Part shown: positions 58,757 to 64,000 of the stretch, one piece after another
How positions within the stretch are numbered: position 1 is the first letter of the stretch
How the letters are laid out: every line of letters begins with the position of its first letter
The notes under the pieces: generated by a model
The model's database searches: none
Told to the model about the DNA's origin: nothing
Seen by the model: only the letters and a program-made list of their open reading frames with translations
Assembly (NCBI RefSeq): GCF_021032705.1
Contig: NZ_JAHVXI010000001.1
Location: forward strand, 1,178,001-1,242,000
Reading direction: 5' to 3'
Origin: Psychroserpens luteolus
Lineage (GTDB): Bacteria; Bacteroidota; Bacteroidia; Flavobacteriales; Flavobacteriaceae
Length of the DNA: 64,000 nt
Position numbers and translations under genes: made by a program

Positions 58757-60598
58757 ATGCTAAGACAATTTTATTTTATTCTTTTTCTATTATTGATTGG
58801 TTGTGGTCAAAAAAGCCATGATGAACGGCTTAAAAATGATATCAATACATTAAAGAAATTACAAGATTTATCTAGTAAAGAGGTTAACGATTCAACATTA
58901 TTATATCTCAATGAAGCTAAAAGAATCATAGATGCTAATGATGACATACCAGATACGCTTCGGCTTGAGAATATATTTTTAAAAGGATATTATTATAGGC
59001 GTATTAATAAGATAGATTCGGCATCTTATTATTTTCATAAAACAATAGATTTAATTGAAGCACCAAATTCAAGATATAGAAACTTGGTATATTATAGAAA
59101 TACTTGGGAAACAGATGAAAATAATAGCAAACTCGCAAATGCAATTAGCACAGCACAAAAGTTTGTTGATATTTCTGATGAAGATAAAAATGCTAAAGGA
59201 CTCACCTATGCCTATAATTTTCTTGAACGTGTTAATTTAGATCTTGGCAACTACGATAAAGCATTATATTTTAATGCCAAAACCTTAAAAGCTGCTAAGA
59301 AATCTTCAGATACAGCAATGTATGTGATCACATCAATTTCTAGAGCTCACCAATTGTATAGTTTAGGAAAAAAAGAGCAGGCTTATAAGCTTCTTGACAG
59401 TGTAGATCATATCAAAACAGTTCCTAAAGATGTAAGGAGGCAGATATTTCGAAATTATGGAGCTCTGTATTTTTATGATGGAGAATATACTAAGGCTATA
59501 GAGAAATATAAACATGCCATAGAATTTTCTAAAGCCACAGAGGGTAATAAAAATTATAATTTGATTGAATCTTATAATAATATTGCTGAGGCTTATATAG
59601 AAAAAGGAGATTACCCATTAGCTAAAATATATTTAGATTCTACTCGGGCTATAATTCAACCTAATTCATTTCCTGACTATGTTACTTTTTATCATGAATT
59701 AAGGTTTAAACTCAATTATCTAACTAAAACTAATGAGGATGAAATACTCGAAGAGTATTTGGGTTTAATAGCAGGTAATAATAAACAGCATGAAGAAAAA
59801 ATAAAAGAAGAACTCATAGCGTTAAAATTATCTAACGAAAAAGAGCAAGATGCATTAACGAAAAAGAAAGAAGCTGAGATTACTAATGTAAAGTTAATGT
59901 CTCTATTAGGGTTTTCTATATTGTTGCTTTTGATTGGGTATTTGTTTTACAGACAAAGACGATTTAAATTTGAAAAGCAAGACTTACAAATGCAACAGCG
60001 CTTATTACGATCTCAAATGAGTCCGCATTTTATGTTTAACACGTTGTCTGCAATTCAAAATCAAATAAAAGGGAATCAAAAAGGTGCAGTGAATTATCTA
60101 ATGAAATTTTCTAGATTATTGAGATTGATTTTAGAAAATTCATTACATAATTATGTTGAAATAGACAGTGAGTTAGAATCACTGCGGAAGTATATAGATT
60201 TACAATTATTACGATTTCCTAATCAGTTTGAGTATACAATTTCATTAGAAAATTTTGAAGAAGATGAAGGGGTTTGTATTCCTCCAATGCTACTTCAACC
60301 TTTTGTTGAGAATAGTATCGAACATGGATTTTTAGGAATTAATTACAAAGGACAAATACATATAAAATTAGAATTACAAGACAAACATATACTATGCGAA
60401 ATAGAAGACAATGGTATTGGCTTACAACCTCTTAATAAAGCTTATCGAAAATCGGTGTCTACACAATTGATTTCAACGTTTATTTATAAAACAACTAAAC
60501 AGAAAGTTATAACTTTAGATAAGAAAAATGAAAACCTTTCCAGTTCAGGAGTCATTGTTAAATTTTTAATTCCATATAAATTTTCAGAACATGATTAG
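58757..60598 (+). CDS. LytS-type sensor histidine kinase with lipoprotein signal and TPR sensor domain
   Basis: A 613-residue membrane kinase. The N-terminus is a lipoprotein signal (FILFLLLIGCGQKS, lipid Cys16), and the periplasmic part up to about residue 370 holds TPR-like repeats (KALYFNAKTLKAAKKSSDTA, GEYTKAIEKYKHAIEFSKA, GDYPLAKIYLDSTRAII). A transmembrane helix (about 378-398, LMSLLGFSILLLLIGYLFY) follows. The kinase part is the LytS/YehU type: LRSQMSPHFMFNTLSAIQNQ with the phospho-accepting His424, and an ATPase domain with LLQPFVENSIEHGF. The 8-bp overlap with the next gene shows it is one operon with its response regulator. Confidence 0.93.
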   Translation: MLRQFYFILFLLLIGCGQKSHDERLKNDINTLKKLQDLSSKEVNDSTLLYLNEAKRIIDANDDIPDTLRLENIFLKGYYYRRINKIDSASYYFHKTIDLIEAPNSRYRNLVYYRNTWETDENNSKLANAISTAQKFVDISDEDKNAKGLTYAYNFLERVNLDLGNYDKALYFNAKTLKAAKKSSDTAMYVITSISRAHQLYSLGKKEQAYKLLDSVDHIKTVPKDVRRQIFRNYGALYFYDGEYTKAIEKYKHAIEFSKATEGNKNYNLIESYNNIAEAYIEKGDYPLAKIYLDSTRAIIQPNSFPDYVTFYHELRFKLNYLTKTNEDEILEEYLGLIAGNNKQHEEKIKEELIALKLSNEKEQDALTKKKEAEITNVKLMSLLGFSILLLLIGYLFYRQRRFKFEKQDLQMQQRLLRSQMSPHFMFNTLSAIQNQIKGNQKGAVNYLMKFSRLLRLILENSLHNYVEIDSELESLRKYIDLQLLRFPNQFEYTISLENFEEDEGVCIPPMLLQPFVENSIEHGFLGINYKGQIHIKLELQDKHILCEIEDNGIGLQPLNKAYRKSVSTQLISTFIYKTTKQKVITLDKKNENLSSSGVIVKFLIPYKFSEHD

Positions 60599-61328
60599 AG
60601 CAATAATAATTGATGATGAAGCTTATGTAAGAACTATCGTGAGTGATAAATTATCACAATACTTCAGTAATGAAATTGAAATTATTAGCGAGGCTGATAG
60701 TGTTGAATCTGGAGTGAAAATCATTGAAGATAAGAACCCAGATTTACTTTTTCTAGATATTCAGCTGAGAGATGGAACCAGTTTTGATATGTTAAATACA
60801 ATAAAAGATAAAAATTTTGATGTCATATTTATAACAGGTTTTGATGACCATGCTATTAAAGCAATAAAGGTTGGAGCCTTAGACTATATTTTAAAACCTA
60901 TTGATGATGAAGAGTTTAAAGAAGCGGTAAAGAAAGCCATCGATAATAGTAAAGAGGAAAATAATATCGAAAAACTGGTTGAAATATCAAGTGAATATTT
61001 TCAAGGAGTAAAAAAGAAACGGATTGTTTTAAAAACACTAGAAAATGTATATGCAGTGTATGAAGATGATATTTTATATTGTAGATCTGAAGGTAACTAT
61101 ACTACATTCTATACCAAACAATCTGAGAAAATATTAGTATCTAAGTCTATGAAAAAAGTATTAGAGTTGTTATCCGAAGATATTTTTATTAGATGTCATC
61201 AATCATATTTAGTTAACAAAAAACATGTGTTAAGATATAATAAACAGGGCGTTTTAGTAATTATTAATGAGATTAAAGTTCCTGTTTCTAGTCGAAGAAA
61301 GGATTACGTTATTGAAAAAATTTTTTGA
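60591..61328 (+). CDS. LytTR-family response regulator
   Basis: A 245-residue cytoplasmic transcription regulator. The receiver domain has the acidic cluster IIIDDEAYVR, phospho-acceptor Asp56 in PDLLFLDIQLRDG, and the Lys in DYILKPIDDEEF. The C-terminal LytTR DNA-binding domain (about residues 145-245) has ILYCRSEGNYTTFYT, SKSMKKVLELL, FIRCHQSYLVNKKHV and VPVSSRRKDYV. It is co-translated with the histidine kinase. LytTR domains bind pairs of direct repeats with two-turn spacing, and such repeats occur 10 bp after this gene. Confidence 0.95.
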   Translation: MIRAIIIDDEAYVRTIVSDKLSQYFSNEIEIISEADSVESGVKIIEDKNPDLLFLDIQLRDGTSFDMLNTIKDKNFDVIFITGFDDHAIKAIKVGALDYILKPIDDEEFKEAVKKAIDNSKEENNIEKLVEISSEYFQGVKKKRIVLKTLENVYAVYEDDILYCRSEGNYTTFYTKQSEKILVSKSMKKVLELLSEDIFIRCHQSYLVNKKHVLRYNKQGVLVIINEIKVPVSSRRKDYVIEKIF

Positions 61329-61331
61329 GAT

Positions 61332-61383
61332 ACGAATTTGAAATCAAAGCCTACGAATTTGAATTTAGTAATGGTCGAATTTG
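61332..61383 (+). promoter_or_regulatory. Three direct repeats: predicted LytTR operator
   Basis: ACGAATTTG (61332-61340), ACGAATTTG (61353-61361) and TCGAATTTG (61375-61383) are separated by 12 and 13 bp, that is 21 and 22 bp from start to start. A 9-bp box at two-turn spacing is the layout bound by LytTR regulators such as AgrA and ComE. The boxes lie between the LytTR gene and the lipoprotein gene, about 60 bp before its ATG. Confidence 0.75.
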
Positions 61384-61442
61384 AAATCTTCATTTTTAAA
61401 AGTGATTATTTATTAAATTACAAAGAAAAATAGCTATCCATC

Positions 61443-62222
61443 ATGAAAAAAAATCACAAATTATTAGTCGTATTCTGCCTACTCATTAGTTTCAACTCTT
61501 GCGAAAAAGAGACTGTAAATGACTACGAAATAAATAGTAAAAATACACAAATAACAGATGTGTATTCTAGAGCAAAAGCTCAAACACAAACACAAACAAG
61601 CGATTCAGAAGCATTAGAAAATAACATGCAATGGGTAGCCTATATGACGGCACAAATATTAATAAAGGACGTCAATGCTACAAATCAATTTATGAGCAGA
61701 TATAATTCTGGAATGATTAATAATGATTACTCAATTATTAGATTATCGGAGTTATTAAACAATCAACAAACAAATCAATCCTTTCGGGATGCTTTTGAAA
61801 ATGAGTTCAATATTTTTACTGGAGAGATACATAATCCATGTGATAATCAAGGCAAGCCAAAATTACGCCCAACTCCTCCACCATGTAGTCCACCTCCATG
61901 TGTTTTACCAAATGAAGATATATTTGAAATCTATGTAGATTATTTAATATCAGAGCATTGTTTGGAGATTTATGTGAGTGGTGGTCTTGATTTATCGCAA
62001 AGTATAACGTCTTCTGCTCATCCATTGAATACGACCAATATTAATGCTGGATTTGAGCATTTTAATTTGAATCAATGCTTGGTTAATGAAGTCACTATAG
62101 ATGGTAATGGAGTAGGTAATCTGTATACCAATTTAATTGTTGTAAGACCTTATAGAGAAATACATGAATGTGATTATCTTCAATTTCCAAACATCCCTGA
62201 TTTCTCACAATTCCCGTATTAA
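61443..62222 (+). CDS. Secreted lipoprotein with six cysteines, unknown function
   Basis: A 259-residue lipoprotein (signal peptide and lipobox SFNSC, lipid Cys20). It has a short Gln-Thr repeat (QTQTQT, about residue 47), a helical part (about 57-125), a proline-rich linker with two of its cysteines (TPPPCSPPPC) and a C-terminal domain with three more; apart from the lipid Cys, six cysteines are present in the mature protein, an even number suited to disulfide bonds. I recognise no family. The gene has its own terminator and stands directly behind three LytTR-type repeats, so it is a probable target of the adjacent two-component system. The next gene encodes a disulfide-forming protein. Confidence 0.75.
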   Translation: MKKNHKLLVVFCLLISFNSCEKETVNDYEINSKNTQITDVYSRAKAQTQTQTSDSEALENNMQWVAYMTAQILIKDVNATNQFMSRYNSGMINNDYSIIRLSELLNNQQTNQSFRDAFENEFNIFTGEIHNPCDNQGKPKLRPTPPPCSPPPCVLPNEDIFEIYVDYLISEHCLEIYVSGGLDLSQSITSSAHPLNTTNINAGFEHFNLNQCLVNEVTIDGNGVGNLYTNLIVVRPYREIHECDYLQFPNIPDFSQFPY

Positions 62223-62244
62223 GAATTCTAAACACTCATACTCT

Positions 62245-62277
62245 AAAGCTTTTTGATTCATGTCAAGAAGCTTTTTT
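62245..62277 (+). terminator. Intrinsic terminator after the cysteine-containing lipoprotein gene
   Basis: AAAGCTTTTTGA (62245-62256) pairs with TCAAGAAGCTTT (62263-62274) with one G-T pair, 6-nt loop, followed by a T-run to 62277. It isolates the lipoprotein transcript, so the next gene needs its own promoter. Confidence 0.85.
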
Positions 62278-62298
62278 ATTTAAAACTATTTCCATTCA

Positions 62299-62334
62299 AC
62301 GAATTTGAAATGGTTACGATCACTTATGAATTTA
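62299..62334 (+). promoter_or_regulatory. Predicted LytTR box before the VKOR-fusion gene
   Basis: ACGAATTTG (62299-62307) repeats the upstream boxes exactly, and a weaker copy ATGAATTTA (62326-62334, 7 of 9 matches) follows 27 bp later. The box begins 113 bp before the ATG at 62412 and lies after the terminator of the previous gene. Spacing of the second copy is off, so this site is less certain than the triple repeat. Confidence 0.5.
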
Positions 62335-62411
62335 CAGTAGCATAGTGCTGTTTTTTTTATGATTTTCAACATAGCAAATGACATATAATTCATAATCAAA
62401 AGTGTATAGCT

Positions 62412-64000
62412 ATGCAAGATCAACTCTATAAGATACTTGAGAAACTGATTGTTAAAACTAATATTCAAGTTAATAAGGAAGAACTTAAACTTCAATTTTC
62501 AAGCCATCCGTCCTATCCAAGCTTACATGCTCTAACAGGTGTTTTAGACCATTTTAATATACCAAACCTAGCACTGCGTTTAGCTGTTAATGAAGACATG
62601 TTACAACAGCTTCCTAAACACTTTATTGCAAACATTGAGAGCGATCAAAAGGATATTTTGGTATTAATTGAAAAGAAAAAAAATGGAATTAAAATAACAA
62701 GCAACCCTAGAGAAAATAAAATAATTACTAACGAGGAATTTTTAAAACGATGGAATGGGATTGTTGTCGCCATAGAAAAAGATGAAACCGTAAAAGAAAC
62801 ATTTGAGAGCCCAACTAAAAAAATGGCTAAATGGATCTTATCTGGACTTGGGATATTACTAGTTGGATATCTTATATTATCAAATAACAGTGTATTTGCC
62901 AGCACACATTTTTTACTAAGTATTGTAGGTTTAATAATTAGCGTGTTTATATTAAATCATGAACTGGGATTACAATCAAATACAACAAATAATTTTTGTA
63001 ATCTATCAGAACATACAAGTTGTGATGCCGTATTAAATTCTAAAGGAGCTTCATTTTTTGGCATATTAAAATTGAGTGATATTAGTATCATTGTCTTTTC
63101 TTGCTATTGTTTATGTTGGTTATTATTCTTTGTAAGTGGAACTTCCAATTATTCAATACTGTCAATAGCTACGTTATTGGCATTTCCTTTTGTAGTTTAT
63201 TCGTTATACTATCAATATAGCGTTGTAAAAAAATGGTGTCCATTATGCTTGAGTATAGCATCAGTTTTAATACTACAAATTACAGCTTTAGTTGTCTTTG
63301 GTGCTTTTTTTAAAACGATAAGGATTGATGTACAAACAATGGTTTTGTTTTCTATGGCGACATTAACTTCAATAGGAGTATGGAGCTTTATAAAACCATT
63401 ATTAAGAAAAAAAGAAGTCCTAGAAAAAACAGAAATAGCCCATTATAAGTTCAAACGTAATTTTTCATTATTTAATGTACTTCTTAATGAAGGGGATGCT
63501 TTTAGCGCTTTTAATTCAATACCAGGTGAAATAGTTCTAGGTAATAAAGATGCAAAGATTGAAGTGGTATTAGTAACAAGCCCTTTTTGTTACTACTGTA
63601 AAAAAGCCCACAGAGATATTGACCAGCTTTTACATAGAATAGGTGACAAAGTCAAGCTAATCATAAGGTTTAATGCAAATGTTAATAATCCAGATGATCA
63701 ACTCTTTCAAGTTGCGTCGAGACTTCTCAAAATATATAATACTCAAAGCAAAAACGAAATTTTAAAAGCTCTTAATGAAGTATATAGTGATGATGTTAAT
63801 CTTGAACATTGGATAAATCACAAACCATATGAAGTTTCGGTCTTTTATAATACAATTTTAAAGATCCAAAGCGATTGGTGTCAAACTAATGCGATTAATT
63901 TCACGCCTGCTTTATATATAAATAACAAACTATTTCCGAAAGAATATGATAGAAAAGATCTCATCTATTTCATTGATGATCTCACAGAACAACTTGATAC
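62412..64000 (+). CDS. C39-like/VKOR/DsbA-like fusion protein, 3' end outside the window
   Basis: This frame is open from ATG 62412 to the window end (529 codons, no stop). Residues about 1-135 resemble a C39 peptidase-like domain (SHPSYPSLHALTGVLDHFNI, residues 31-50) but without a visible catalytic Cys. A membrane region (about 140-340) is of the vitamin K epoxide reductase type: paired Cys196 and Cys204 (FCNLSEHTSCDAV) and the active WCPLC with Cys276 and Cys279. A thioredoxin/DsbA-like domain follows with SPFCYYCKKAH (Cys393, Cys396) and a FTPALYINNKLF segment that carries the cis-proline. VKOR enzymes make disulfides and pass electrons to quinone. The fusion with a C39-like domain is known in Bacteroidota near peptide export genes. 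It has an LytTR-type box upstream. Confidence 0.88.
   Translation, partial: MQDQLYKILEKLIVKTNIQVNKEELKLQFSSHPSYPSLHALTGVLDHFNIPNLALRLAVNEDMLQQLPKHFIANIESDQKDILVLIEKKKNGIKITSNPRENKIITNEEFLKRWNGIVVAIEKDETVKETFESPTKKMAKWILSGLGILLVGYLILSNNSVFASTHFLLSIVGLIISVFILNHELGLQSNTTNNFCNLSEHTSCDAVLNSKGASFFGILKLSDISIIVFSCYCLCWLLFFVSGTSNYSILSIATLLAFPFVVYSLYYQYSVVKKWCPLCLSIASVLILQITALVVFGAFFKTIRIDVQTMVLFSMATLTSIGVWSFIKPLLRKKEVLEKTEIAHYKFKRNFSLFNVLLNEGDAFSAFNSIPGEIVLGNKDAKIEVVLVTSPFCYYCKKAHRDIDQLLHRIGDKVKLIIRFNANVNNPDDQLFQVASRLLKIYNTQSKNEILKALNEVYSDDVNLEHWINHKPYEVSVFYNTILKIQSDWCQTNAINFTPALYINNKLFPKEYDRKDLIYFIDDLTEQLD

Follow-up and report, generated by a model that had tools for sequence, protein, structure and literature searches.

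What do the four genes at the end of a 64,000-nucleotide stretch of Psychroserpens luteolus DNA make, and what ties them together? The stretch (the window; positions 1178001–1242000 of contig C11, in a genome of 3.84 Mb and 56 contigs) closes with four consecutive plus-strand genes encoding a LytS-like sensor histidine kinase, a LytTR response regulator, a lipoprotein, and a fusion protein with C39-like, VKOR, and DsbA-like domains. An initial annotation had regarded them as a disulfide-forming system under two-component control and had expected an ATP-binding cassette (ABC) exporter and cysteine peptides with double-glycine (GG) leaders beyond the window. All four open reading frames (ORFs) were found as it described, those of kinase and regulator overlapping by 8 nt (Table 1). 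The fusion ORF crosses the window end by 52 bases, with its stop at 64052 (C11:1242052; L005:6053), L005 being the stretch extended past the window end (window position = L005 position + 57999; L005 position = C11 position minus 1235999). Extension of the contig yielded two GG-leader cysteine peptides, an ABC exporter with a C39 peptidase domain (PCAT), and an HlyD adaptor, so the main prediction of the initial annotation proved correct. As a whole, the locus probably serves the regulated production of small GG-leader peptides with disulfide bonds, which would be bacteriocin-like by analogy. We also lean, with a slight preference, toward a joint reading in which a leader-guided, pre-export disulfide machine (a dead C39 domain with an upside-down VKOR) works together with a new 58-nt class of cis RNA, the cassette having gained the boxes of a regulatory triad formed by kinase, regulator, and lipoprotein.

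For comparison, we used 397 sampled genomes of the family and phylum samples of 198 and 247 genomes, and gathered stretches around 60 further fusion matches, 14 lipoprotein matches, and the best 80 regulator relatives; 62 of the 74 places with a fusion match were covered (own locus and one double match included). Across the 45 loci where PCAT lies downstream, a finder with no cysteine requirement detected 61 GG peptides between the VKOR and PCAT genes, versus none when the reverse strand was scanned. No two of the 61 cores were identical, each contained at least two cysteines, and 56 had an even number; these even counts, together with the peptide set itself, support disulfide-bonded products. 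At one locus, L132, GG peptides were found elsewhere in the cassette, and in three triads without VKOR (L122, L123, and L138) GG cysteine peptides stood behind the lipoprotein. GG peptides occurred near 12 of 24 triads, which is co-occurrence only. The C39 domain of the own exporter scored 119.9 bits (Peptidase_C39), and the leader of peptide A resembled NCBIfam NF047798 (leader_Chryseo) at 20.1 bits, below the cut-off of 23.5. By analogy with the bacteroidetocins, which an excerpt of PMC6671954 presents as proposed class IIf bacteriocins of Bacteroidetes, the peptides may be antibacterial. A separate observation was a near-identical small GG peptide on the strand opposite VKOR in three genomes (L115 7271-7426, L110 7241-7396, and L113 12141-12296), which ends in ANVNPSACCCP or close to it.

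The disulfide-forming fusion proposed by the initial annotation was borne out by its domains: Peptidase_C39, VKOR, and Thioredoxin_4 exceeded their curated Pfam cut-offs, as did His_kinase, Response_reg, and LytTR in the two-component pair. The VKOR domain (PF07884) scored 58.2 bits against a cut-off of 27.5. In an alignment of 65 fusions, restricted to VKOR ORFs longer than 450 aa, Cys 196, 204, 276, 279, 393, and 396 were invariant in all 65, the first four being the redox cysteines of VKOR. The N-terminal domain was homologous to the C39 domain of the exporter (hhalign probability 97.6%). A DCG-like catalytic motif was present in 1 of the 65 N-terminal domains versus 45 of 46 related exporters, and by eye no catalytic DCG box was seen in that domain of the own fusion. 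The missing catalytic box suggests that the domain probably binds GG leaders rather than cutting them. The C39-like domain of HlyB, which has the C39 fold and no catalytic cysteine, recognises the transported substrate. According to an excerpt of PMC6363468, the double-Gly protease domain of LahT is a C39 fold that recognises the leader. Unlike these two, the C39-like domain described here is fused to an oxidase and not to an ABC transporter.

Subsequently, the membrane topology of the fusion was considered. Six transmembrane helices were predicted, being seen both in the alignment and in the AlphaFold2 (AF2) model. On the active-site side, lysine plus arginine (K+R) per residue amounted to 0.192 in the N-terminal flank, 0.121 in loop 1-2, 0.185 in loop 3-4, and 0.266 in the C-terminal flank, whereas the three loops on the other side had 0.028, 0.024, and 0.045. 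Each of the 65 fusions had a K+R excess on the active-site side (median 17, minimum 11). The pattern was reversed in 25 ordinary VKORs of the phylum, whose mean K+R was 2.48 in loop 2-3, 2.24 in loop 4-5, and 0.32 in loop 3-4, whereas the fusions had 0.20, 0.62, and 1.85 in the same loops; L221, L238, L239, and L240, which carry a C39-like N-terminus (4 of the 29 VKOR loci read), were excluded from this control. The reversed charge pattern predicts that the oxidase domains and the C39 domain are cytoplasmic, so that disulfides would be formed before export; an inverted enzyme with redox domains on the cytoplasmic side is the simplest reading. The VKOR/DsbB-DsbA pairs of bacteria are well known to act in the periplasm, and by this family knowledge the fusion could be an ordinary periplasmic VKOR-DsbA oxidase acting after export, with the charge pattern as a family quirk. 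A single conserved KKWC motif and the linker at the C-terminus account for part of the charge signal, and the AF2 model is poor (predicted local distance difference test score, pLDDT, 60.2; predicted template modelling score, pTM, 0.34) and cannot decide the sides, so the predicted topology rests on charge counts. A loop-only score without the C-terminal flank also speaks against the inversion, being above 0 in 47 of the 65 fusions, 0 in 12 (own included), and below 0 in 6; in the 25 ordinary VKORs it was below 0 in 23 and above 0 in 1. A sequence search of the PDB with the single fusion gave 0 matches. The periplasmic alternative nevertheless seems rather unlikely, given the charge excess common to all 65 fusions, the opposite pattern of the ordinary VKORs, and the six helices, with which the N-terminal domain (about 130 aa, no evident signal peptide) would be required to cross the membrane. 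The predicted inverted orientation has an apparent archaeal precedent, to judge from a title: Hibender reportedly described in 2017 a topologically inverted VKOR of Aeropyrum pernix, its topology being linked to disulfide formation in two compartments. We know of no C39-like domain in that protein and of no link to a peptide exporter.

The two peptide genes of the own locus have a common 58-nt leader, whose predicted architecture is an upstream hairpin (P0) and an H-type pseudoknot (P1/P2; 6 bp, 3 nt, 6 bp, 8 nt). In an unfiltered alignment of 61 peptide leaders, both-side changes were observed at all 12 pairs of P1 (6 bp) and P2 (6 bp), 82.5% of the cells paired, and the covariation score was 0.393 versus 0.178 in shuffled and at most 0.158 in slid alignments. 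In 40 selected copies including P0, double changes were found at 16 of 18 pairs, P0 being the weakest helix (71.4% paired). The predicted pseudoknot structure is therefore supported by covariation. A covariance model, R1, was trained on 40 of 43 element sequences (excluding L112, the second L109 copy, and L077:13086, a near-repeat); it covers P0 and P1 only, since P2 cannot be modelled. With stricter filters, element copies were found in 9 of 247 phylum genomes, own included. The own genome yielded five copies (E of about 1e-4 or better), all located in its two VKOR cassettes; two of the five had been used for training. The second cassette (G000:C53:86000-105500; L075) has VKOR, PCAT, and HlyD without a triad or a strong box; it carries RNA elements before a GG peptide and before a 211-aa lipoprotein, and a degenerate copy before PCAT.

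Training copies included, 107 copies of the element were found across 46 of 64 VKOR loci, and 98 of them preceded, on the same strand, an ORF in which a loose pattern recognised a GG-like motif; the distance was 23-28 nt for 89 of the 98. This pattern made at least one false GG call (behind L132 11352). Among the 61 GG peptides encoded between VKOR and PCAT, 42 had a copy, about 25 nt ahead of the start codon. At 19 VKOR-less loci around a triad, lipoprotein, or regulator, one copy was found, in L123, before a GG peptide. Among 25 held-out copies, which exclude the training copies although some share genomes with them, 21 stood before a GG-type peptide (by eye), one before a VKOR fusion, two before lipoproteins, and one between VKOR and PCAT. 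Their P2 complementarity, which the model does not see, was 5.32 versus 4.18 by chance (standard deviation 0.20; 0 of 5000 permutations). Since its distance to the start codon is fixed, the pseudoknot may act in translation or mRNA stability. The element could instead act at the DNA level, either as a recombination site similar to attC or as an operator bound by a protein: its recurrence ahead of many variable peptide genes resembles that of a cassette boundary, and its P0 part is also a DNA palindrome (TTCGCGAA, CTTGCAAG). However, the covariation of P1 and P2 between species, which extends to the unmodelled P2 of the held-out copies, the geometry of an H-type RNA pseudoknot, and the same-strand GG-type ORFs at a narrow distance render this explanation very improbable. 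A search of Rfam 15 over L005 1-10300 and six further element loci (E up to 1) gave no same-strand match over the element, the scan producing one chance match on the other strand in L253. The apparently inverted oxidase and this covarying pseudoknot without an Rfam match are further items beyond the original claim.

Some of the 19 peptides between VKOR and PCAT that had no copy carried a related or a different leader. In L096, related pseudoknot leaders of quite different sequence (longer P1; P2 CCTTTC/GAAAGG) were missed by the model, which suggests an RNA class wider than R1. In L097 (8944-9038) and L099 (8873-8967 and 7289-7383), another conserved leader without a pseudoknot, around AGCGGAAGCCGAAAAGCTATAACAGAGTAGGC, possibly represents a second leader class. 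Genome G320 (L252, L260, L262, and L264-L274) had 14 RNA-model matches on seven contigs, 9 of which were off the contig bearing its only VKOR-fusion match.

We then examined the boxes that the initial annotation had described as shared, three before the lipoprotein and a fourth before the fusion. Indeed, CGAATTTGAA occurs exactly at L005 3334, 3355, 3377, and 4301 (window 61333, 61354, 61376, and 62300), the first three copies being spaced 21 and 22 bp, and a fifth exact copy lies within maeB. The single 10-mer was mildly enriched, with 7 matches (at most 1 mismatch, 20 kb) versus 3.08 expected and 9 of 200 shuffles as high. The tandem pattern CGAATWTGAA-N9..14-AATWTG gave only two overlapping matches in the genome of 3.84 Mb, both at the lipoprotein promoter, and one match when read backwards as a control. 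The same motif was found in tandem within the regulator-lipoprotein gap of relatives, so matching boxes exist outside this species. A matrix built from the 15 triads without VKOR only (consensus AACGAATATGAAAT) detected a box of at least 7 bits in 20 of 24 triads, the expectation from shuffled sequence being 0.04-0.21 sites per region; it is in-sample for those 15, whereas the nine VKOR-linked triads were held out and all nine had a site. Neighbouring boxes were spaced 21 bp in 19 of 22 pairs, the remaining pairs being at 22, 15, and 42 bp.

In a scan of 240 bases around the VKOR starts, a box of 14.3-17.3 bits was found in 7 of the 9 triad-linked loci, whereas the 56 unlinked VKOR genes scored 10.1 bits at most (Mann-Whitney p = 1.1e-4, uncorrected for relatedness among the loci). 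As for the other two linked loci, L135 had 7.7 bits before its first start codon and a box of 14.9 bits ahead of a later one. L132, with reversed module order, had 1.1 bits before VKOR and a 16.5-bit box behind the lipoprotein, where it is followed by an RNA element and the gene of an exported protein of 145 aa. The box thus tends to be found at the position after the lipoprotein, and the regulator would bind the 21-bp-spaced boxes. The exported cysteine protein of L132 (11434-11871), with its own LytTR box and RNA element, is a possible non-GG member of the regulon.

Table 1 Features of the locus (window positions unless L005 is given).
Feature	Position	Strand	Basis or remark
Sensor histidine kinase (LytS-like His_kinase PF06580)	58757..60598	+	ORF, Pfam
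LytTR response regulator	60591..61328	+	ORF, Pfam; 8-nt overlap with kinase
LytTR-type box 1, TACGAATTTGAAAT	61331..61344	+	16.5 bits
LytTR-type box 2, 21 bp past box 1	61352..61365	+	15.4 bits
LytTR-type box 3, 22 bp past box 2	61374..61387	+	14.7 bits
Triad lipoprotein	61443..62222	+	ORF
LytTR-type box before VKOR fusion	62298..62311	+	17.2 bits, matrix trained on other loci
Weaker partner box ATCACTTATGAATT, 21 bp downstream of the fusion's box	62319..62332	+	10.3 bits
C39-like/VKOR/DsbA-like fusion, 546 aa	62412..64000 in window	+	ORF, Pfam
RNA element, two copies	L005 6054-6111 and 6391-6448		Both training copies of the covariance model
GG peptide A, 58 aa, 4 core cysteines	L005 6137-6313
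GG peptide B, 55 aa, 6 core cysteines	L005 6473-6640
PCAT exporter (ABC with C39 peptidase domain)	L005 6702-8891
HlyD adaptor	L005 8910-10202

The kinase carries an N-terminal lipobox-like Cys16, a TPR region, an apparent transmembrane segment preceding the kinase domain (judged by eye), and a HATPase domain, and Cys16 and Pro423-His424 were invariant among six homologues. With a LytTR domain, a receiver domain, and an adjacent kinase, the regulator belongs to a LytTR two-component pair. It was 61-67% identical to the regulators of five other complete loci; among the best 80 regulator matches, its nearest named relatives were in an unclassified Flavobacteriales genome and in Winogradskyella (76-78% identity).

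How firmly, then, is this triad tied to the peptide cassette? The fusion was found in 55 of the 397 family genomes and the lipoprotein in 15 of them, the own genome counted in both. Kinase, regulator, and lipoprotein stood together in 24 distinct loci (L133 and L134 were excluded as duplicates of L125 and L121), nine of which were also linked to a VKOR cassette; the cassette was absent at the other 15, and 55 of the 64 VKOR loci had no triad in the stretch examined. In that stretch, a full-length PCAT was found at 46 of the 64 and HlyD at 46. Triad linkage was seen at 6 of 61 loci found by the fusion and at 9 of 64 when L131, L132, and L135 were added, which were found via the regulator search, a search that favours linkage in these three. 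The four window genes were also considered as an obligate unit, and this candidate was rejected on the triads without VKOR and the VKOR loci without a triad; the kinase-regulator-lipoprotein group is, by this gene order, a module separate from the cassette.

The initial annotation had named unlinked VKOR and two-component genes in related genomes as evidence against its system. Most loci are indeed unlinked, whereas the linked ones carry the shared box. The triad could be an independent module that merely stands beside the cassette and exerts no control over it, for which the counts just given speak. This seems quite improbable, as the box of the lipoprotein promoter also precedes the next gene in linked loci and is absent at the 56 unlinked VKOR promoters, and the triad also precedes GG peptides in three loci without VKOR. 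The presence of the box in linked but not in unlinked loci supports a regulatory link in the manner of a plug-in and not of an obligate unit. At the chromosomal site queG-triad-maeB, L126, L127, and L130 have no cassette, whereas the own genome and L131, a Winogradskyella metagenome-assembled genome, have one, which suggests that the cassette was gained behind the triad or lost from there. As part of the joint reading that we slightly prefer, the cassette would in some species have come under the LytS/LytTR/lipoprotein module by gaining 21-bp-spaced boxes. In the own genome, the HlyD gene is followed by maeB-like and ruvA-like genes and then by a very long surface protein gene.

The lipoprotein, with its six mature cysteines, had been regarded as a candidate substrate of disulfide formation. 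Those cysteines are present (133, 148, 153, 173, 212, and 243, besides the lipobox Cys20), but only Cys173 and Cys243 were invariant besides the lipobox cysteine among 11 homologues. With only two conserved mature cysteines, the lipoprotein was rejected as a cysteine-rich substrate, and this part of the initial annotation did not stand. From its occurrence, the lipoprotein is part of the regulatory triad, outside the cassette; rather than a substrate, it is most likely a partner protein in the envelope, perhaps in signalling, or one with a protective function. Its AF2 model (pLDDT 76.6) gave no PDB fold match at E<=0.001. In a more specific form of protection, it could be the immunity protein for the peptides: it heads the cassette under the same boxes, and a lipoprotein gene of weak similarity (profile E 6e-4) in L075 itself stands behind an RNA element. 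On the other hand, it is missing at 55 of 64 VKOR loci and kept by many cassette-less triads, and an excerpt of PMC6671954 mentions no obvious immunity protein at bacteroidetocin loci; we thus regard immunity as a tentative and somewhat doubtful assignment beside the broader roles named above. In L120, L124, L121, L138, and L117, one regulator was followed by two or three lipoprotein copies, with tandem duplication in the first four.

Several observations weigh against the regulated peptide production proposed for the locus. No RNA-model match was found for 19 of the 61 peptides encoded between VKOR and PCAT, nor at the GG peptides of L122, of L138, and of three of the four in L123. The own two leaders were not unusually stable in ordinary folding (z -0.77 and +0.46), by a program that ignores pseudoknots. 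In the looser set behind all RNA elements, an even cysteine number was found in 77 of 98 peptides, which is weaker than 56 of 61. No GG peptide was found nearby in 12 of the 24 triads, and four of the 24 (L120, L122, L124, and L128) had no recognisable box. Finally, the fusion and the lipoprotein were not found in the two same-genus genomes searched, which indicates that the whole system is patchy.

The locus was compared with known systems. Regulated class II bacteriocin loci of Gram-positives have a LytTR regulator, direct repeats of about 21 bp, GG peptides, and a PCAT with an accessory protein. The present locus has all of these features, but differs in its Gram-negative host, in a kinase of the TPR/His_kinase (PF06580) type, and in its lipoprotein component. 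In the open-licence literature, no matches were obtained for C39, double-glycine, or bacteriocin combined with VKOR; among the literature matches listed, neither such a fusion with bacteriocins nor such a pseudoknot appeared, a weak negative. An excerpt of PMC6671954 describes for bacteroidetocins a GG leader, a C39-peptidase ABC exporter, and a thiol oxidoreductase, as here, with four cysteines in bacteroidetocins A and B; there, deletion of the thiol oxidoreductase attenuates toxin activity, and Bacteroides is reported to be without general disulfide machinery. Unlike in bacteroidetocins, the oxidase here takes the form of a C39-like/VKOR/DsbA fusion, there is an HlyD adaptor, a locus often has several different peptides, and two-component control and a pseudoknot leader are added. 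The terms two-component, LytT, and HlyD are absent from the main text of PMC6671954.

We propose the following sequence of events. The TPR-type, LytS-like kinase would sense an envelope or peptide signal and activate the LytTR regulator, which would bind the tandem 21-bp-spaced boxes, sites recognised by comparison, before the lipoprotein and the VKOR fusion. Peptide precursors would be translated from mRNAs in which the conserved pseudoknot stands some 25 nt ahead of the start codon. The C39-like domain, having no catalytic cysteine box, may hold the GG leader; at this stage the DsbA-like domain would oxidise the cysteines of the core and VKOR would hand the electrons to quinone, as expected from these families. 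This oxidation is predicted to occur on the cytoplasmic side before export, from the charge pattern, the helix number, and the N-terminal domain without an evident signal peptide. PCAT would then, as known for its family, cleave after the GG motif and export the peptide through the HlyD adaptor.

The boxes offer a defined candidate regulon for a LytTR regulator of Bacteroidota. The pseudoknot, whose model held on copies outside its training set, may serve as a genome-mining handle for hypervariable peptide genes. If the predicted orientation is true, a dedicated inverted oxidase would show a bacterial route to cytoplasmic-side disulfides for peptides destined for export.

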